In this document: piece after piece, positions 45,178 through 53,251 of the stretch | How positions within the stretch are numbered: the first letter of the stretch is position 1 | Layout: each line of letters opens with the position of its first letter | NCBI GenBank assembly: GCA_030041495.1 | Contig: JASHNT010000090.1 | Location: forward strand, 28,119-92,118 | Length of the DNA stretch: 64,000 nt | DNA from: Bryobacteraceae bacterium | GTDB taxonomy: Bacteria > Acidobacteriota > Terriglobia > Bryobacterales > Bryobacteraceae | Direction: 5' to 3' | Made by a program: the position numbers and the translations under genes | The notes under the pieces: generated by a model | The model's database searches: none | Told to the model about the DNA's origin: nothing | Seen by the model: the letters and a program-made list of their open reading frames with translations, nothing else

Positions 45178-47157
45178 ATGGCGAAATCGAAGAACACGGT
45201 TGCTGGTAACGGCGGATTTGGCAGGCGCGGATTCTTGAAGAATGCGGCAGCGAGCGCGGCCGGCGCGGCGTTGGCCACCACGGCGCCGCTGGTCGAAGCC
45301 CAGCAGCAGAGCAACGGCAGGGCGCGAACCAATGGGGCGGCTCCGGCTCCGACCGAGGCGCAGCTTGAGCGCGACGCCGGCAACGTCCGGCCGCCGGCGG
45401 TGACGCGGACCATCACTCGTCCGGGCTCGGACCTGATGGTGCAGGTCATCAAGGATCTGGGCATCGAATATGCGGTGGCGAATCCGGGGTCGAGCTTCGA
45501 GGGCTTGCAGGAATCGTTCATCAACTACGGCAATCCCCGCAACAAGGACCCCGAGTGGATCACGGCGCTGCACGAAGAATCGGCTGTGACCATGGCTCAC
45601 GGCTACGCCAAGGCCGAAGGCAAGCCGATGTGCGCGCTGCTGCATGGCACCATCGGAATCCAGCACGCGTCCATGTCGATTTACCAGGCCTACTACGATC
45701 GCGTGCCGGTGCTGATGCTGGCGGGCAACGATCCGGATTTCATCGCCGCGCATACGGCGCAGGACATGGCGGGGATGGTGCGCAGCTTCACCAAGTGGGA
45801 CGCGCAGCCCAAGACCGTGGAAGACGCGCTGCGCGCGATCCAGCAAGCCTACAACGAAGCCATCACGCCTCCCATGGGACCCACTCTGGTGGTGCTGGAC
45901 ACCGAGATTCAGAAGGAGAACGTCCCGACGCTGCAGATTCCTGCGTATAAGCCGCCGACGTTCATGACCATCGACTCTTCGCATGCCCGCGAAATCGCGT
46001 CGGGGTTGTTGGCCGCGCAGAACCCGCGAATCGAGGTCGGCCGTTTGCGCACTCCTGGTGGCGTGAAGCAGGCAGTAGAGCTTGCCGAGCTGGTCGGCGC
46101 ATCCACCAGCACCGCGGCGACGCAAGGTCCCATGAGTTTCCCGCAAAGGCACGCCCTGTGCGGACCGGGCGCGGACACCAATTACGATTACACGCTCGGG
46201 CTGGAAGTTGCCGCGCCTCAGGTGGGCATCGTCGGTCCCGGGACATCCACCATCGTTGCCGAGCGAGATAAGGACCATATCGATTTCGGCGGCATCACTC
46301 CGGGCGTGGGCGGGCGCGGAGCGGGGGGAGGCAGAGGCGGGCGCGGCGGACGGGGAGGCCGCGGAGGCAACGCGGTGCCCAATGCCACTCCAATCGAAGC
46401 CGATGCCGAAGCCAGCCTGCCGTTGATCATCGAACAGGTGAAGAGCCAGATGACTTCGGACCAGAAGTCGCGCATCCAGGCGCGCATCGCCAAGCACACG
46501 ACTGCGAATCACGAGGCTCGCGTGACCGCGATCAAAGCCGCGGTCGAAAGCAAGATGGCGGGATGGAACGGCAGCCCCATCAGCACGGCTCGCATTTACG
46601 CCGAGCTGTGGCCGCTGATCATGAACGAAGACTGGTGCCTTTCCTCGCCCAGCAATTTCTCGGGCGGGCACAACGCGCAGTTGTGGGATCACGACAAACC
46701 CTACAGCTACCTGGGCGGTCAAGGCGCGGGCGGCATGGGCTACGGCGCTCCGGCTTCGGTGGGCGCGGCCCTTGCGGCGAAGCATCGCGGCCGCATCGTG
46801 ATCAACGTGCAGACCGACGGCGATTTGAACTACGCTCCCGGCGTGCTGTGGACCGCGGTGCATCACAAGCTGCCGATGCTGACCGTCATGCACAACAATC
46901 GCGCCTGGCATCAGGAATACATGTTCGTCGAATACATGGCGGGCGTCCGCGGCCGCGGCGCGCTGAACGCGGACATCGGCAGCACTCTGCGCGATCCGTT
47001 CATCGACTACACCAAGATGGCGGCCGGTTACGGCATGGCGCATGAGCTGGAGCCGATCTCGGACCCGGCCAAACTGCAGGCGGCGCTGCGGCGCGGCGTG
47101 GCGTCAGTGAAGCGCGGCGAGCCGTATATGATCGACGTGATCACGCAGCCTCGATAA
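45178..47157 (+). CDS. Tat-exported thiamine-diphosphate-dependent enzyme (acetolactate synthase/POX-like) with RGG insert
   Basis: GRRGFLKNAAASAAGAALATTAPLVEAQ; IEYAVANPGSSFEGLQES; HEESAVTMAHGYAKAEG; ThDP motif TDGDLNYAPGVLWTAVHHKLPMLTVMHNN. Confidence 0.83.
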   Translation: MAKSKNTVAGNGGFGRRGFLKNAAASAAGAALATTAPLVEAQQQSNGRARTNGAAPAPTEAQLERDAGNVRPPAVTRTITRPGSDLMVQVIKDLGIEYAVANPGSSFEGLQESFINYGNPRNKDPEWITALHEESAVTMAHGYAKAEGKPMCALLHGTIGIQHASMSIYQAYYDRVPVLMLAGNDPDFIAAHTAQDMAGMVRSFTKWDAQPKTVEDALRAIQQAYNEAITPPMGPTLVVLDTEIQKENVPTLQIPAYKPPTFMTIDSSHAREIASGLLAAQNPRIEVGRLRTPGGVKQAVELAELVGASTSTAATQGPMSFPQRHALCGPGADTNYDYTLGLEVAAPQVGIVGPGTSTIVAERDKDHIDFGGITPGVGGRGAGGGRGGRGGRGGRGGNAVPNATPIEADAEASLPLIIEQVKSQMTSDQKSRIQARIAKHTTANHEARVTAIKAAVESKMAGWNGSPISTARIYAELWPLIMNEDWCLSSPSNFSGGHNAQLWDHDKPYSYLGGQGAGGMGYGAPASVGAALAAKHRGRIVINVQTDGDLNYAPGVLWTAVHHKLPMLTVMHNNRAWHQEYMFVEYMAGVRGRGALNADIGSTLRDPFIDYTKMAAGYGMAHELEPISDPAKLQAALRRGVASVKRGEPYMIDVITQPR

Positions 47158-47178
47158 AGGATGCCAAGGACGATTTTC

Positions 47179-47643
47179 ATGAAGAAGATTTTGATTTTTG
47201 CGGTCGCGCTAGCGGCGTCGGCCGTAATTCTGAGTGCGCAAGGGCGAGGACGCGGAGCCGCCGCGGCGCCCGCCAAGCCTGTCCCGGCGCCGACCAGTCC
47301 GGTCACCGGCAATGCGGTTACCGGCAAGACCCTGTACTACAACTTCGGCTGCTACGCTTGCCATGGCTATAATGGCGAAACCGGAGCTCGGCCGTTTGTC
47401 GGGCGCTGGGGCAATCTGTCGACTGAACAGAGTTTCCTCACGTTTTTGCGCGGACGCGCAAACGTGGCTCCGCTGACTCCCGCGACCAACATGCCGAACT
47501 TCAGCACGAATTCGATGTCCGACAAGCAGGCCAAGGACATCTACGCTTACATTCGCACCTTCCACAGCACCGCTCCTCCGGATGTGAAGGACGCACCCGC
47601 CCTGAACGAAATCGTGCAGGCGGCCGAGGCGGGGAAGAAGTAG
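47179..47643 (+). CDS. Secreted mono-heme cytochrome c
   Basis: MKKILIFAVALAASAVILSAQGRGRG; FGCYACHGYNG; distal Met candidate TNMPNFS. Confidence 0.87.
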   Translation: MKKILIFAVALAASAVILSAQGRGRGAAAAPAKPVPAPTSPVTGNAVTGKTLYYNFGCYACHGYNGETGARPFVGRWGNLSTEQSFLTFLRGRANVAPLTPATNMPNFSTNSMSDKQAKDIYAYIRTFHSTAPPDVKDAPALNEIVQAAEAGKK

Positions 47644-47694
47644 GGCTGCTCACCCGAGGACGAGCCCTTGTCGCGCGAAAACCTGCCGGCTAGA

Positions 47695-48240
47695 ATGGAC
47701 ACTCCCAGTATGGCTCACCAGATTGTGCTCGCAGGCTTGCTGAGTATTACGTGGATCGGTGTGCCTGCTCTGGCTCAAACGGCTGGCTGCATCGTCGGGA
47801 CCGCCAAAAATGGAGACGTGGTGAAGATTCATAGCGAGTTATTCCACGGAGCCCACGATGCGCTCATCCGGCCGGCAGCATGTCCGGATGGTGACATTGT
47901 TCTGGTCTATGGCGACGATGCGTCTCTAGGAGAGGCGAGGCTGCCCGTGAAGCGGGACGAGTCCTTCCGGCAGCTCGAAAGGTACTCCAAGGAGCAACTG
48001 CCGTCGAGGCTGAACGAAATCTGCAGCCAGTGTTTCCGGTATCGTGTGACCGCTGACTTCGAGGGGCGACTGGACCTGGCGCCCTCGGCAGGCTGGAAGA
48101 GGGATCCCAGGACCGGGAAGGTGATCGGCATTGAGGGCTTCGGCCACCCACTTCCGTTCAGTCGATATCGGCTGGTGCTGACCGCTGTCTCGAACGTCCA
48201 AGCTGTGGAGCGGACACCGCCGGCCACGGAGAGGCACTGA
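47695..48240 (+). CDS. Secreted hypothetical protein
   Basis: MAHQIVLAGLLSITWIGVPALAQ signal peptide; no family recognised. Confidence 0.5.
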   Translation: MDTPSMAHQIVLAGLLSITWIGVPALAQTAGCIVGTAKNGDVVKIHSELFHGAHDALIRPAACPDGDIVLVYGDDASLGEARLPVKRDESFRQLERYSKEQLPSRLNEICSQCFRYRVTADFEGRLDLAPSAGWKRDPRTGKVIGIEGFGHPLPFSRYRLVLTAVSNVQAVERTPPATERH

Positions 48241-48366
48241 GGACGGCCAGGACACACCCCGGGGATGGAGCGTGCTGCTACCTGGGCGGCTTGCCGCGTT
48301 GCGGTGGCGCGCGCGCAGCGATAAGATAGCCCTTCGGTTGTTCGATTTAACAATTAGGTGAAATCC

Positions 48367-50025
48367 ATGAAGATTCGACCACTCCTGTTGGTGTGTCTGC
48401 CGGCGTTGATGTGGGCCCAGGGCCGCGGCGGACCGCAAAATCGCGAAGCCGACGTCAACCCGGTCTCTTTCGACCGCATCCTGAACGCGAACAAGGAGCC
48501 GCAGAACTGGCTGAGCTACTCTGGCGGCACGATGAGCGACCGTTACAGCGAGCTCAAGCAGATCACTCCGGAGAACGCCAAGGATCTCACGCTTAAGTGG
48601 GTATTCCAGGCGCGGACCCTCGATAAAGAAGAGGTGACGCCGCTGGTGGTGGATGGCGTGATGTACACGGTGCAGAGTCCCAACGATGTGGTTGCGCTCG
48701 ATGCGGCTACCGGCAAACAAATCTGGATCTACCAGCACACTCCAGCCAAGGGCACCACCAATCCGTGTTGCGGCAATCTCACTCGCGGCGTCGCCATTCT
48801 GGGAGACAAAATTTTCCTCGCGACATTGGATGCCCAGGTGATCGCCATTAACGCCCGCACCGGCAAAGAAGTATGGAAGACTCAGGCCGGCGATTATACA
48901 CAGCAATATTCCATGACGCACGCACCGCTGGTGGTCAAGGATAAAGTGATCGCCGGCGTGGCGGGCGGGGAGCACGGCATCCGCGGCTATATCTGCGCCT
49001 TCGACGCCAACACCGGCAAAGAAGTTTGGCGCTTCGACACGGTCCCCGGACCGGGAGAGCCCGGCAATGAGACCTGGCTCGGCCCGGATGGAAAGCCCAA
49101 CGATTCCTGGATGCACGGCGGCGCGCCCGTCTGGGTGACCGGATCGTATGATCCTGATACGAACCTGACCTACTGGGGTACCGGCAATGCCGGACCCGAT
49201 TGGGATGGCGACGCACGCTTGGGCGACAACCTCTATAGCTCCTCCGTGGTCGCGCTCGAGGTGGACACGGGCAAGCTTAAGTGGTACTACCAATTTTCGC
49301 CGCACAATGAGTTCGATTGGGACGCAACGCAGGTTCCGGTGCTGGCTGACATCAATTTCAAGGGAAACCCGCGCAAAGTGATGCTGTGGGCCAATCGCAA
49401 TGGTATGTTCTACGTGCTGGACCGCACCACGGGCCAGTTCCTGTTGGGCAAGCCGTTTACGAAGGTCAATTGGGCAACCGGTTTCGATGAGCGCGGCCGG
49501 CCGATGCTGGATCCCAAGGTGAAGCCGACCAAGGAAGGCACTTTGGTGTATCCCGGCAATCAGGGCGGGACCAACTGGTACAACCCGTCCTTCAGCCCGT
49601 CCACGGGGCTGTTCTACATCCCGACATGGGAAAATTCTTCCAGCGTGTATGTGAAGGGCGACGCTCCGCCGGAGTTTCACGCCGGGCAGAGCTTCTCCGG
49701 TCCCTTCCCGAGAAATCAGAAGACCGATGATGACCTGTTCAGCTCCGTGATCGCGGTCGATCCCAACACGGGCGAGCGTAAGTGGACGCACCGGTTGAGC
49801 GCACCCAACACGGAGGCCGGCATCCTGACCACGGCGTCGAATGTCCTGTTCAGTGGCGGCCGCGATGGAGCCTTCTACGCTCTTGACGCTCGCACGGGAG
49901 ATCTGCTGTGGGATACCAACCTTGGGCCTTCGGTCTCTGCCGGACCGATGACGTACGAGGTCAGCGGCAAGCAATACGTCAGCATCCAGTGCGGCAGCGG
50001 GTTGTACACGTTCGCGCTACGCTAA
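48367..50025 (+). CDS. PQQ-dependent (quinoprotein) alcohol dehydrogenase-like protein
   Basis: LKWVFQARTLDKEEVTPLVVDGVMYTVQSPNDVVALDAATGKQIWIYQ; NPCCGNLTRGVA (vicinal disulfide); YDPDTNLTYWGTGNAGPDWDGD. Confidence 0.9.
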   Translation: MKIRPLLLVCLPALMWAQGRGGPQNREADVNPVSFDRILNANKEPQNWLSYSGGTMSDRYSELKQITPENAKDLTLKWVFQARTLDKEEVTPLVVDGVMYTVQSPNDVVALDAATGKQIWIYQHTPAKGTTNPCCGNLTRGVAILGDKIFLATLDAQVIAINARTGKEVWKTQAGDYTQQYSMTHAPLVVKDKVIAGVAGGEHGIRGYICAFDANTGKEVWRFDTVPGPGEPGNETWLGPDGKPNDSWMHGGAPVWVTGSYDPDTNLTYWGTGNAGPDWDGDARLGDNLYSSSVVALEVDTGKLKWYYQFSPHNEFDWDATQVPVLADINFKGNPRKVMLWANRNGMFYVLDRTTGQFLLGKPFTKVNWATGFDERGRPMLDPKVKPTKEGTLVYPGNQGGTNWYNPSFSPSTGLFYIPTWENSSSVYVKGDAPPEFHAGQSFSGPFPRNQKTDDDLFSSVIAVDPNTGERKWTHRLSAPNTEAGILTTASNVLFSGGRDGAFYALDARTGDLLWDTNLGPSVSAGPMTYEVSGKQYVSIQCGSGLYTFALR

Positions 50026-50067: not shown

Positions 50068-50892
50068 ATGATCGTTGAGATCGAAGGCGTGCCGCTGCAT
50101 CTGGCCCATCCGGATGAGCTGACAGTCAACTGGGTAGGACAGGAAGAGGTCATGCGGCAATTATTGGCCGCGTGGCTCGTGATCGACGCGCAGGACCTGC
50201 CCATGAACCCGCGCTTGCTGGGCAAACCCGGAGTGGGCAAGACCACGCTCGCTTACGCCGCGGCCAAGCGCCTGGGCCGCGAAGTCTACATCATGCAAGC
50301 CACAGTAGACACCCGTCCGGAAGATCTCCTGGTGACGCCGGTGATCGAGGGCGACTCCAGGCTGCGCTACGTGGCATCCCCGCTAGTCACGGCGATGCTG
50401 CGCGGCGGCATCGTGATTCTGGACGAAGGCAATCGAATGAGCGAGAAGAGCTGGGCCAGCCTGGCTCCGCTGCTCGACAACCGGCGGTACGTCGAGTCGA
50501 TCGTCGCCGGGATCAAGATCAAGGCGCACCCTCTGTTCCGGCTGGTGGCGACCATGAATGACGACGCCAGCACCTTCGATCTTCCCGAATACATCCACTC
50601 CCGCCTGCAGCCGCAAATTCTGATCGATTTTCCGGAAAGGCACGAGGAAATCGCAATTTTGCGCGAAAATCTGCCGTTCGGCGACGATCATATTCTGAGC
50701 TATGTCACCGATTTTCTCCAGAACGCCCATGCCGCCGATGAGCGTTATACCGCGCGCGACGGCATCAACATCGCCCGGTTCGCCATGAAGCTGGCGAGCG
50801 AAGAGGCGCGCGGCGTGAGCTCGGAGATTCTGCGCCTGGCCGTGACGCAAACGCTCGGCGACGAGGCCTTGCGGTATGTCCCTCGAAACTGA
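50068..50892 (+). CDS. MoxR-like AAA+ ATPase
   Basis: Walker A GKPGVGKTTLA; Walker B GGIVILDEGNRM; LVATMNDDASTFDLPEYIHSRLQPQI. Confidence 0.82.
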   Translation: MIVEIEGVPLHLAHPDELTVNWVGQEEVMRQLLAAWLVIDAQDLPMNPRLLGKPGVGKTTLAYAAAKRLGREVYIMQATVDTRPEDLLVTPVIEGDSRLRYVASPLVTAMLRGGIVILDEGNRMSEKSWASLAPLLDNRRYVESIVAGIKIKAHPLFRLVATMNDDASTFDLPEYIHSRLQPQILIDFPERHEEIAILRENLPFGDDHILSYVTDFLQNAHAADERYTARDGINIARFAMKLASEEARGVSSEILRLAVTQTLGDEALRYVPRN

Positions 50893-52714
50893 GATCAAGC
50901 GCGGAGGCCTGGAGCGGGGGCGGACACTATATTTTCCCGTGGCTCCGGGACGCGTCGAATTCACCATCGCTCTGCGGCGGCTGCTGTTAGAGCGGCGCCC
51001 GAAGATCGTGGCCGTGGAGCTGCCCGGGTTTCTGGAATCGGCGTACCGCCGCGCGGTCGACCGGCTGCCGGAGATTTCAGTGATCCTGTACATGGAGGAA
51101 AACGGCCCCAGCTCAGAAGACGGCGACCGCGCCGTCTATGTTCCGGTTGAGCCCGCCGATCCTTTCACCGAAGCTGTACGAACGGCCGAAGAAATCGGTG
51201 CGCAGGTGATGTTCCTGGAGCCGGATTCCAATGAGCGCCCCCACCTCCCCGACCAATACCCCGATAGCTACGCAATTGCGCGCATCGGCCTGGAGAAATA
51301 CATCGAGTCTTACCGGCTGTGGCCGCAGACACGCACTGAAGAGGTCAGCGCGCACGCGGGCGGAATGGCTTGGAAGCTGCAAGGCGCGAATCCGGAGGCA
51401 AGCATTGTCGCGGTCGTATCGTTGAACCTGCTGGACCCTCTGCTCGACGCCATGGAGGCTCCGCAGGAAGCGCCCGCGCCGCGACGAAAGAATCCGGCAG
51501 TGCGCCTGCTCAATCCGCACCCTGACTGCCTGGCGGAGATCACGGTCGAATATCCGTATTTGCAAGAGCGCTACGAGTTCTTCCGGCTGGATCTTCGCGA
51601 CCAGGAGACGCTCGACCGTCCGCGTGTCCAATGGGATCTTCTGCGCGAGGCCGAGACAAAATATACGCAATCGACTGGAGACAAACTGGAGCATTGGCAG
51701 CGGCGGCTGATCGCACGGTACACGCGCAGCCTGGCACAGACCAGTGGCGACCTAATGGCCGGCGTTTACGACCTGGCCGTCGCCGCGCGTTCCATTGTGG
51801 ACGACAACTACGGCTGGGAAGTATGGCAGATGGCGAATCGTTATCTGGCGCAGCATGAAACCTCGCCGCTTGAAACCGTGCGGCTCTCTGCCGGCGAAAT
51901 CTGGATCAACACCAAGCGGCTGCGCATCCGCCGCAGGCTTCCCCGCCCCAAGCAGATGCTTCGTCCCGCGGGCCTGAAGCCTCGCAAACGCGAGAAGGAG
52001 CCCGGCGAATGGGCCCGGCAGACCACTGGTAACGCCATCTGCTCCTATCCGCCCGAAGATCTGGTCATCGAAGACTACGGCCGCTTTTTGAAGAAAAAGG
52101 CCAAGGCGATCCTTTCGGAAGAACGCGTGCGCGTGGAGCCGTTCACCACCTCTATTCTGGACGGAATCGACATTCGTGAGACCATCCGCAACTGGCACCA
52201 GCAGAAAATCTACGTGCGGCAGGCGGACCGTTTGGCCGGCGAAGTTGGCGCGGTGGTGGTGATCTTCGACGAGGACCGCGAGGACCGGTATCAATATCTG
52301 ACCACCTGGCTGGGCGAGCATCAGAATGAATCCGACATGGCATTTTATTCCACGTTCCCGTTCGACAATCTGGTGGGGCCAGGAATTGGGCGCGCTGAAT
52401 ACGGCGGGTTTCTGATGACGCTGCCTCCGCGGCGGATGTTCGACGTTTGGTCGGATACCGAGTACGATTTCGCCGAGTCGAAAGCCGAGCGGCTATTGAT
52501 GGCCGGCCTCGATTATTCGGTCGAGCGTTTCGTCGTATACGTGGCCGCGAAGCCGCCGCGCTCGATTTTCCGTTCCATCGCCGCGCACGTGGGGCGTAAG
52601 ATCTTGTACGTCCCCATAGGCGCGCTGTCGCCCACGAAGCTCAAGAAGCTGCGCGTGGTCCACGTGCTCGACAGCTACGAGCGCCGGGCCGAAGCGAAAG
52701 AGTACATCTGGTAA
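50876..52714 (+). CDS. Large uncharacterised protein (possible TraB/DUF5682-like N-terminus), overlaps the AAA gene
   Basis: LERGRTLYFPVAPGRVEFTIALRRLLLERRPKIVAVELPGFLESAYRRAVDRLPEISVILYMEE; 17-nt overlap with upstream AAA gene. Confidence 0.7.
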   Translation: MSLETEIKRGGLERGRTLYFPVAPGRVEFTIALRRLLLERRPKIVAVELPGFLESAYRRAVDRLPEISVILYMEENGPSSEDGDRAVYVPVEPADPFTEAVRTAEEIGAQVMFLEPDSNERPHLPDQYPDSYAIARIGLEKYIESYRLWPQTRTEEVSAHAGGMAWKLQGANPEASIVAVVSLNLLDPLLDAMEAPQEAPAPRRKNPAVRLLNPHPDCLAEITVEYPYLQERYEFFRLDLRDQETLDRPRVQWDLLREAETKYTQSTGDKLEHWQRRLIARYTRSLAQTSGDLMAGVYDLAVAARSIVDDNYGWEVWQMANRYLAQHETSPLETVRLSAGEIWINTKRLRIRRRLPRPKQMLRPAGLKPRKREKEPGEWARQTTGNAICSYPPEDLVIEDYGRFLKKKAKAILSEERVRVEPFTTSILDGIDIRETIRNWHQQKIYVRQADRLAGEVGAVVVIFDEDREDRYQYLTTWLGEHQNESDMAFYSTFPFDNLVGPGIGRAEYGGFLMTLPPRRMFDVWSDTEYDFAESKAERLLMAGLDYSVERFVVYVAAKPPRSIFRSIAAHVGRKILYVPIGALSPTKLKKLRVVHVLDSYERRAEAKEYIW

Positions 52715-52789: not shown

Positions 52790-53251
52790 ATGAGAACAAC
52801 CCTTACCCACATCTTTTTTCTGTTGATCGCGTCCCTTCCGGCATTCGCCGACGGTCCTACCGAGGTCCCCTGGAAGGATTTCTGCCGGATCGCGGGCGAC
52901 CGCCAATTGGAAATCGTCACGAGTTCCGGGGAAAACATCTCGGGTTACTGCGAGGTGATCACAGTCGACGAAGTGAGCGTGAGAACCCCCAACGGAATCG
53001 TCAAGATCGGCCGCGCGGCTCTAGCGCACATCCAAATGGAGCGTTCGCAGGGCCGTCAACTCAGCACCCTTGGCCACGGCATCCGCGGTGGTCTGAAGCA
53101 GGGTACGGACTGGCTGCTGTCTCCCTCGGCTCCTCTGGGCATCGTTACCATCCCAGGTACCCTCGTCTGGGGCGCAATATCCGCGCCATTCTGTCTGCTC
53201 GGCGATTTGAAACATCACCTGATGGGTAGCGAGGAAATCGCCCTGAAGTAG
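52790..53251 (+). CDS. Secreted hypothetical protein
   Basis: MRTTLTHIFFLLIASLPAFADG signal peptide; isolated ORF. Confidence 0.5.
   Translation: MRTTLTHIFFLLIASLPAFADGPTEVPWKDFCRIAGDRQLEIVTSSGENISGYCEVITVDEVSVRTPNGIVKIGRAALAHIQMERSQGRQLSTLGHGIRGGLKQGTDWLLSPSAPLGIVTIPGTLVWGAISAPFCLLGDLKHHLMGSEEIALK

Follow-up and report, generated by a model that had tools for sequence, protein, structure and literature searches.

A two-gene module of a MoxR-type ATPase and a TraB/DUF5682-related partner, conserved in Bryobacteraceae without a VWA gene

MoxR ATPases are widespread, but clients have been identified for few of them, and VWA proteins are regarded as their partners. MoxR proteins have been characterized as chaperones that act in maturation together with dedicated partners (PMC3893208, PMC9976466). 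The MoxR AAA proteins of CbbQ-CbbO, NorQ-NorD and RavA-ViaA are each encoded with one dedicated partner gene. In the known DUF5682 operons of Rhizobium, Deinococcus and E. coli (yehL-yehM-yehP-yehQ), a MoxR gene occurs together with DUF5682 and VWA genes; DUF5691 and/or SWIM genes are present as well. A MoxR AAA core is also present in the MoxR-vWA ternary (VMAP) conflict systems, and the reported conflict systems have variable effectors (PMC7159879). Among the papers searched, none names DUF5682 and none links MoxR with DUF5682 or TIKI/TraB/vWA; the two naming both MoxR and TraB are expression surveys.

Here we describe a MoxR-type gene and the partner gene that follows it in a 64,000-nucleotide stretch of DNA from a Bryobacteraceae bacterium, an acidobacterium from soil (hereafter the window; Table 1). 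An earlier note on this DNA, made from the letters alone, had reported an AAA ATPase with clear Walker A and B motifs, a 17-nt overlap with the gene of a 612-aa second protein and no visible VWA gene. All of these observations hold: the motifs are GKPGVGKTT (Walker A) and ILDE (Walker B), and neither a VWA gene nor another recognizable partner gene lies near the pair in the window.

Table 1. Features of the ATPase-partner module, in window positions
Feature	Position	Strand	Evidence
MoxR-type AAA+ ATPase, 274 aa	50068..50892	+	Pfam AAA_5 E = 2.4e-21
Walker A GKPGVGKTT, ATPase residues 52-60	50221..50247	+	sequence
Walker B IVILDE, ATPase residues 115-120	50410..50427	+	sequence
Partner protein, 612 aa, family without name	50876..52714	+	no Pfam, NCBIfam or PADLOC match
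17-nt overlap of ATPase and partner genes	50876..50892	+	sequence
TraB/DUF5682-like N-terminal domain, partner residues 12-215	50909..51520	+	hhalign against DUF5682 and YehM; residue census; tree
Helical middle section, partner residues 216-376	51521..52003	+	initial part still alignable with DUF5682
C-terminal alpha/beta domain, partner residues 377-612, without known relative	52004..52711	+	invariants; AlphaFold2 model

Directly upstream of the ATPase gene (45178-50025) are genes for a thiamine-diphosphate enzyme whose leader resembles a twin-arginine signal (RRGFLKNAAASAAGAALA), for a cytochrome c and for a beta-propeller protein of the PQQ type. Their linkage to the ATPase gene is not conserved in relatives; the thiamine-diphosphate enzyme, if exported, would be unusual. 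The pair is followed by a gene for a 153-aa protein (52790-53251) whose start resembles a signal peptide and which no Pfam model matches.

The ATPase belongs to the MoxR AAA+ proteins by its AAA_5/AAA_3 domain, its Walker A and B motifs and its similarity to the MoxR family. Searched by sequence against the PDB, it matches midasin (E = 9e-25) and then NorQ and CbbQ, with midasin far ahead of either. In pairwise BLAST, YehL is more distant from it (24% identity, E = 0.03) than are MoxR proper and CbbQ/NorQ. In a tree with YehL and the DUF5682-linked AAAs it forms a separate clade, whose exact sister is uncertain because long branches meet there. By these comparisons the window ATPase is a separate MoxR subfamily, grouping with neither the YehL/DUF5682-linked AAAs nor RavA.

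Of 80 loci taken from named genomes, 78 have the ATPase gene directly upstream of the partner gene, and the other two are contig edges that start at or just before the partner. In all but one of the 78 loci, the genes overlap or lie no more than 50 nt apart. Both genes occur in 38 of 61 related genomes, neither occurs in 18, and 5 have only one. Three of these five are incomplete genomes with fragments of the partner only, and two retain the ATPase only: in G009 the ATPase gene runs off the contig end, hence the partner is missing from the sequence, and in G053 the partner is gone and the ATPase gene has an in-frame TAA. At the G053 locus (L172, 7661-8464), a MOSC-like gene follows the decaying ATPase gene. 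The two genes are apart, with both present, in four genomes (G029, G030, G123 and G326); an apparent stop in the ATPase of G326 was located outside the gene.

The two-gene architecture is constant in the family, and beyond the pair gene order is not conserved: the relatives' loci share no further neighbour and no defence gene. On this comparative evidence the ATPase and its partner form a real module, one unit. The neighbourhood analysis suggested in the earlier note thus finds the two genes co-conserved, and no characterized family claims the pair. Of its proposal of an undescribed chaperone/effector pair, the part that stands is an undescribed, co-conserved MoxR/partner pair with a partner family that has no name; the stress or conflict part is not supported, as discussed below.

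Like the MoxR-DUF5682-VWA operons (YehL-YehM-YehP-YehQ and its counterparts in Rhizobium and Deinococcus), the module consists of a MoxR AAA gene followed by one whose product has a DUF5682/TraB-like N-terminal half. Unlike them, it has no VWA, SWIM or DUF5691, its ATPase lies outside the YehL clade, and the C-terminal 300 residues of the partner do not align with DUF5682 in hhalign. For these reasons it is not a member of the MoxR-DUF5682 operon type, yet it would work like a MoxR-DUF5682 pair. The module shares the use of one dedicated partner with CbbQ-CbbO, NorQ-NorD and RavA-ViaA, but its partner has no VWA similarity and belongs to an unrelated family.

With moderate confidence, we propose that the pair is one functional unit, a MoxR AAA+ motor and a dedicated partner which the ATPase remodels or activates. 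The ATPase would most likely assemble as a ring and spend ATP on the partner, with which it would interact physically and which may be either client or adaptor. The partner would thereby stand where a VWA protein normally would. Its TraB/DUF5682-like N-terminal domain would be joined through the helical connector to a C-terminal domain that does the work, perhaps by catalysis.

The earlier note saw no recognizable catalytic motif in the partner outside its N-terminus. The family alignment argues otherwise, since conservation is highest in the C-terminal domain, which contains 29 of the 38 positions that are invariant in 48 sequences. Most family-wide invariant residues lie at partner residues 389-607 (C389, E394, E399, D432, E435, W478, G480, E481, E485, S486, D487, Y509, G510, G511, D527, D546, R593 and H596 in the C-terminal domain). 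Mean identity within Bryobacteraceae is 73% for this domain compared to 60% for the N-terminal domain, and outside the family 52% compared to 36%. The invariant residues, among them acidic ones as well as Cys, His, Trp and Tyr, point to a putative enzyme or metal centre, and the C-terminal domain is probably the working end of the partner.

The whole partner was modelled with AlphaFold2 using 47 sequences (mean pLDDT 86). This run superseded an earlier model from 17 close sequences, in which the C-terminal domain was unreliable and the fold search gave mostly noise. Searched against the PDB, the partner model has no match at E <= 0.001. No VWA domain was found in the partner by Pfam or by hhalign against YehP and the Rhizobium VWA protein (probability <=7%), and comparisons of the C-terminal domain with VWA (YehP, Rhizobium), DUF5691 and YehI gave no relationship. 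Single family members weakly matched precorrin methyltransferase, Cas11, glycosyltransferase and further entries; these matches are scattered and were judged to be chance.

Co-conservation can also arise through a shared, unlinked third component. The pair could jointly mature an unlinked enzyme, such as by metal cofactor insertion as in NorQ-NorD and CbbQ-CbbO, with the partner replacing the VWA adaptor and not being the final target. This fits general MoxR biology (PMC9976466, PMC13036017, PMC3893208), the BLAST proximity of the ATPase to MoxR proper and CbbQ/NorQ, and the fact that the pair is tied to no other conserved gene. Nonetheless, no candidate client is conserved beside the pair, and the conservation of the C-terminal domain resembles that of an active site and exceeds the apparent needs of an adaptor. 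We regard joint maturation of another enzyme as possible but rather unlikely.

The relatives of the pair are mostly from Bryobacteraceae/Bryobacterales (Acidobacteriota), and in Bryobacteraceae it is nearly universal and mostly single-copy. Across Acidobacteriota, 22 of 396 sampled genomes have partner homologues, mostly with the ATPase close by (58-73% identity); outside the order, partner identity is 32-43%. Phyla beyond Acidobacteriota were covered by one contig scan (best 80 of 210 matches) together with plasmid, phage and viral collections. One plasmid record, from Neochlamydia sp. S13, has the two genes side by side, with 65% identity for the ATPase and 36% for the partner. On this plasmid (pS13; L149, 11102-13815) the pair is located beside a TtcA-family gene and, a few kb away, there are genes for an AbiEi-type antitoxin and for a recombinase.

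No partner homologue was found in phage records. Two IMG/VR contigs (L195 and L196) encode the partner and could represent the edges of prophages or host DNA assigned wrongly; judged by eye, L195 also has an integrase-like ORF and L196 tail-protein-like ORFs. A metagenome-assembled genome deposited as Bordetella parapertussis (L036) has an acidobacterial partner gene with 78% identity, and its species name is most likely wrong.

The earlier note had suggested a possible stress- or conflict-related role. In a system of this kind the partner would be toxic and under the control of the ATPase, a scheme put forward for the MoxR-vWA ternary systems. The patchy distribution outside the family, the Neochlamydia copy near antitoxin and recombinase genes and the two IMG/VR contigs would agree with such a role. 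However, compared with the VMAP systems, the module has no vWA in its neighbourhood, no VMAP and no variable effector domains. There was also no PADLOC match above chance, no conserved defence neighbour and no homologue in phage records. Because the pair is near-universal and of invariant architecture in its own family, unlike the variable systems of PMC7159879, the conflict role is less likely; we consider it improbable, and the suggestion is not borne out.

We then consider the N-terminal half of the partner, for which the earlier note had named a TraB/DUF5682-type start. The motif that it quoted is real and conserved, and this half is, by profile comparison, distantly homologous to DUF5682/TraB. 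Compared to DUF5682 (PF18934) by hhalign, it reaches E = 1.8e-12 (97.7%), a value that went from 1.5e-4 with close relatives only through 5.1e-9 as distant homologues joined the profile; against E. coli YehM alone, E is 4.4e-6. In Pfam, DUF5682 matches 6 of 27 partner-family members (best 3.4e-6) and TraB_PrgY_gumN weakly matches 3 of 27. The window protein itself gives no match to the DUF5682 model at its curated cut-off, and the copy from the genome G036, with 21.1 bits, falls short of the cut-off of 26. The homology is not full-length: it covers partner residues 33-308 and stops at 308 of 612. The window protein differs from DUF5682 in its C-terminal domain and in histidines that have been lost in its order.

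Among fold matches of the full-length partner model, the top PDB hit is 7w5z_E, chain E of Tetrahymena complex IV, and the top viral hit is a marseillevirus TraB-family protein; the TraB-family matches are individually weak (best E about 0.02-0.04). Tetrahymena complex IV includes a TraB-family subunit (PMC10060162), which we infer to be chain E. These predicted-fold matches only back up the sequence evidence for TraB likeness. The best, though weak, fold matches lie in the TIKI/TraB/PrgY/ChaN/Ere superfamily, and homologues outside the order keep the His/Glu positions; the window protein lacks both His and has additional helical and C-terminal domains.

TIKI enzymes use a 2His/2Glu set (PMC6254334), and, judged from the alignment, partner positions 24, 48, 99 and 185 would be its counterparts. 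The window protein does not have the complete putative catalytic set: position 24 (PVxH) is P24 and position 185 (GxxH) is L185, with E48 and E99 kept. Outside the order, all 21 homologues that contain the region keep PVxH, E48, E99, RE and GxxH, including both His, compared to replacement of both His in all 31 sequences of the window's clade, that is, its order. E99 is kept everywhere and E48 nearly everywhere. When the tree is computed from the rest of the partner sequence, the loss of both His is a single change, on a branch with support of 100/99.

The TraB/DUF5682 homology and the motifs kept outside the order would fit a partner that works as a TIKI/TraB-type hydrolase powered by the ATPase, but for the window protein and its order this is very improbable. 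PMT has a TIKI fold but no 2His/2Glu motif, and it did not act as an endopeptidase on KRas (PMC6254334); given this and the loss of both His, the TraB domain of the window protein is probably not a TIKI-type hydrolase. In this order it may instead act as a scaffold or ligand-binding part. We tentatively suggest that the C-terminal domain has a new fold, either that of an enzyme or one that binds metal, and is matured or driven by the MoxR ATPase without VWA, and that the TraB domain in the window's order is a pseudo-enzyme.

Finally, it is scarcely conceivable that the two genes are chance neighbours with no functional link: MoxR genes are common and the pair is unlinked in a few genomes, but the fact that the two genes occur together and side by side across the phylum, and also in Chlamydiota, refutes this.

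The partner family ties the uncharacterized DUF5682/YehM proteins to the TraB/TIKI superfamily, and its His-bearing and His-free versions offer a natural comparison within one machine. If the C-terminal domain is indeed a new fold and the TraB domain a pseudo-enzyme, the module would represent a MoxR machine of a new type, working without VWA. As a minimal two-gene MoxR system without a VWA gene, kept across a bacterial family, it makes the question of the MoxR partner directly testable.
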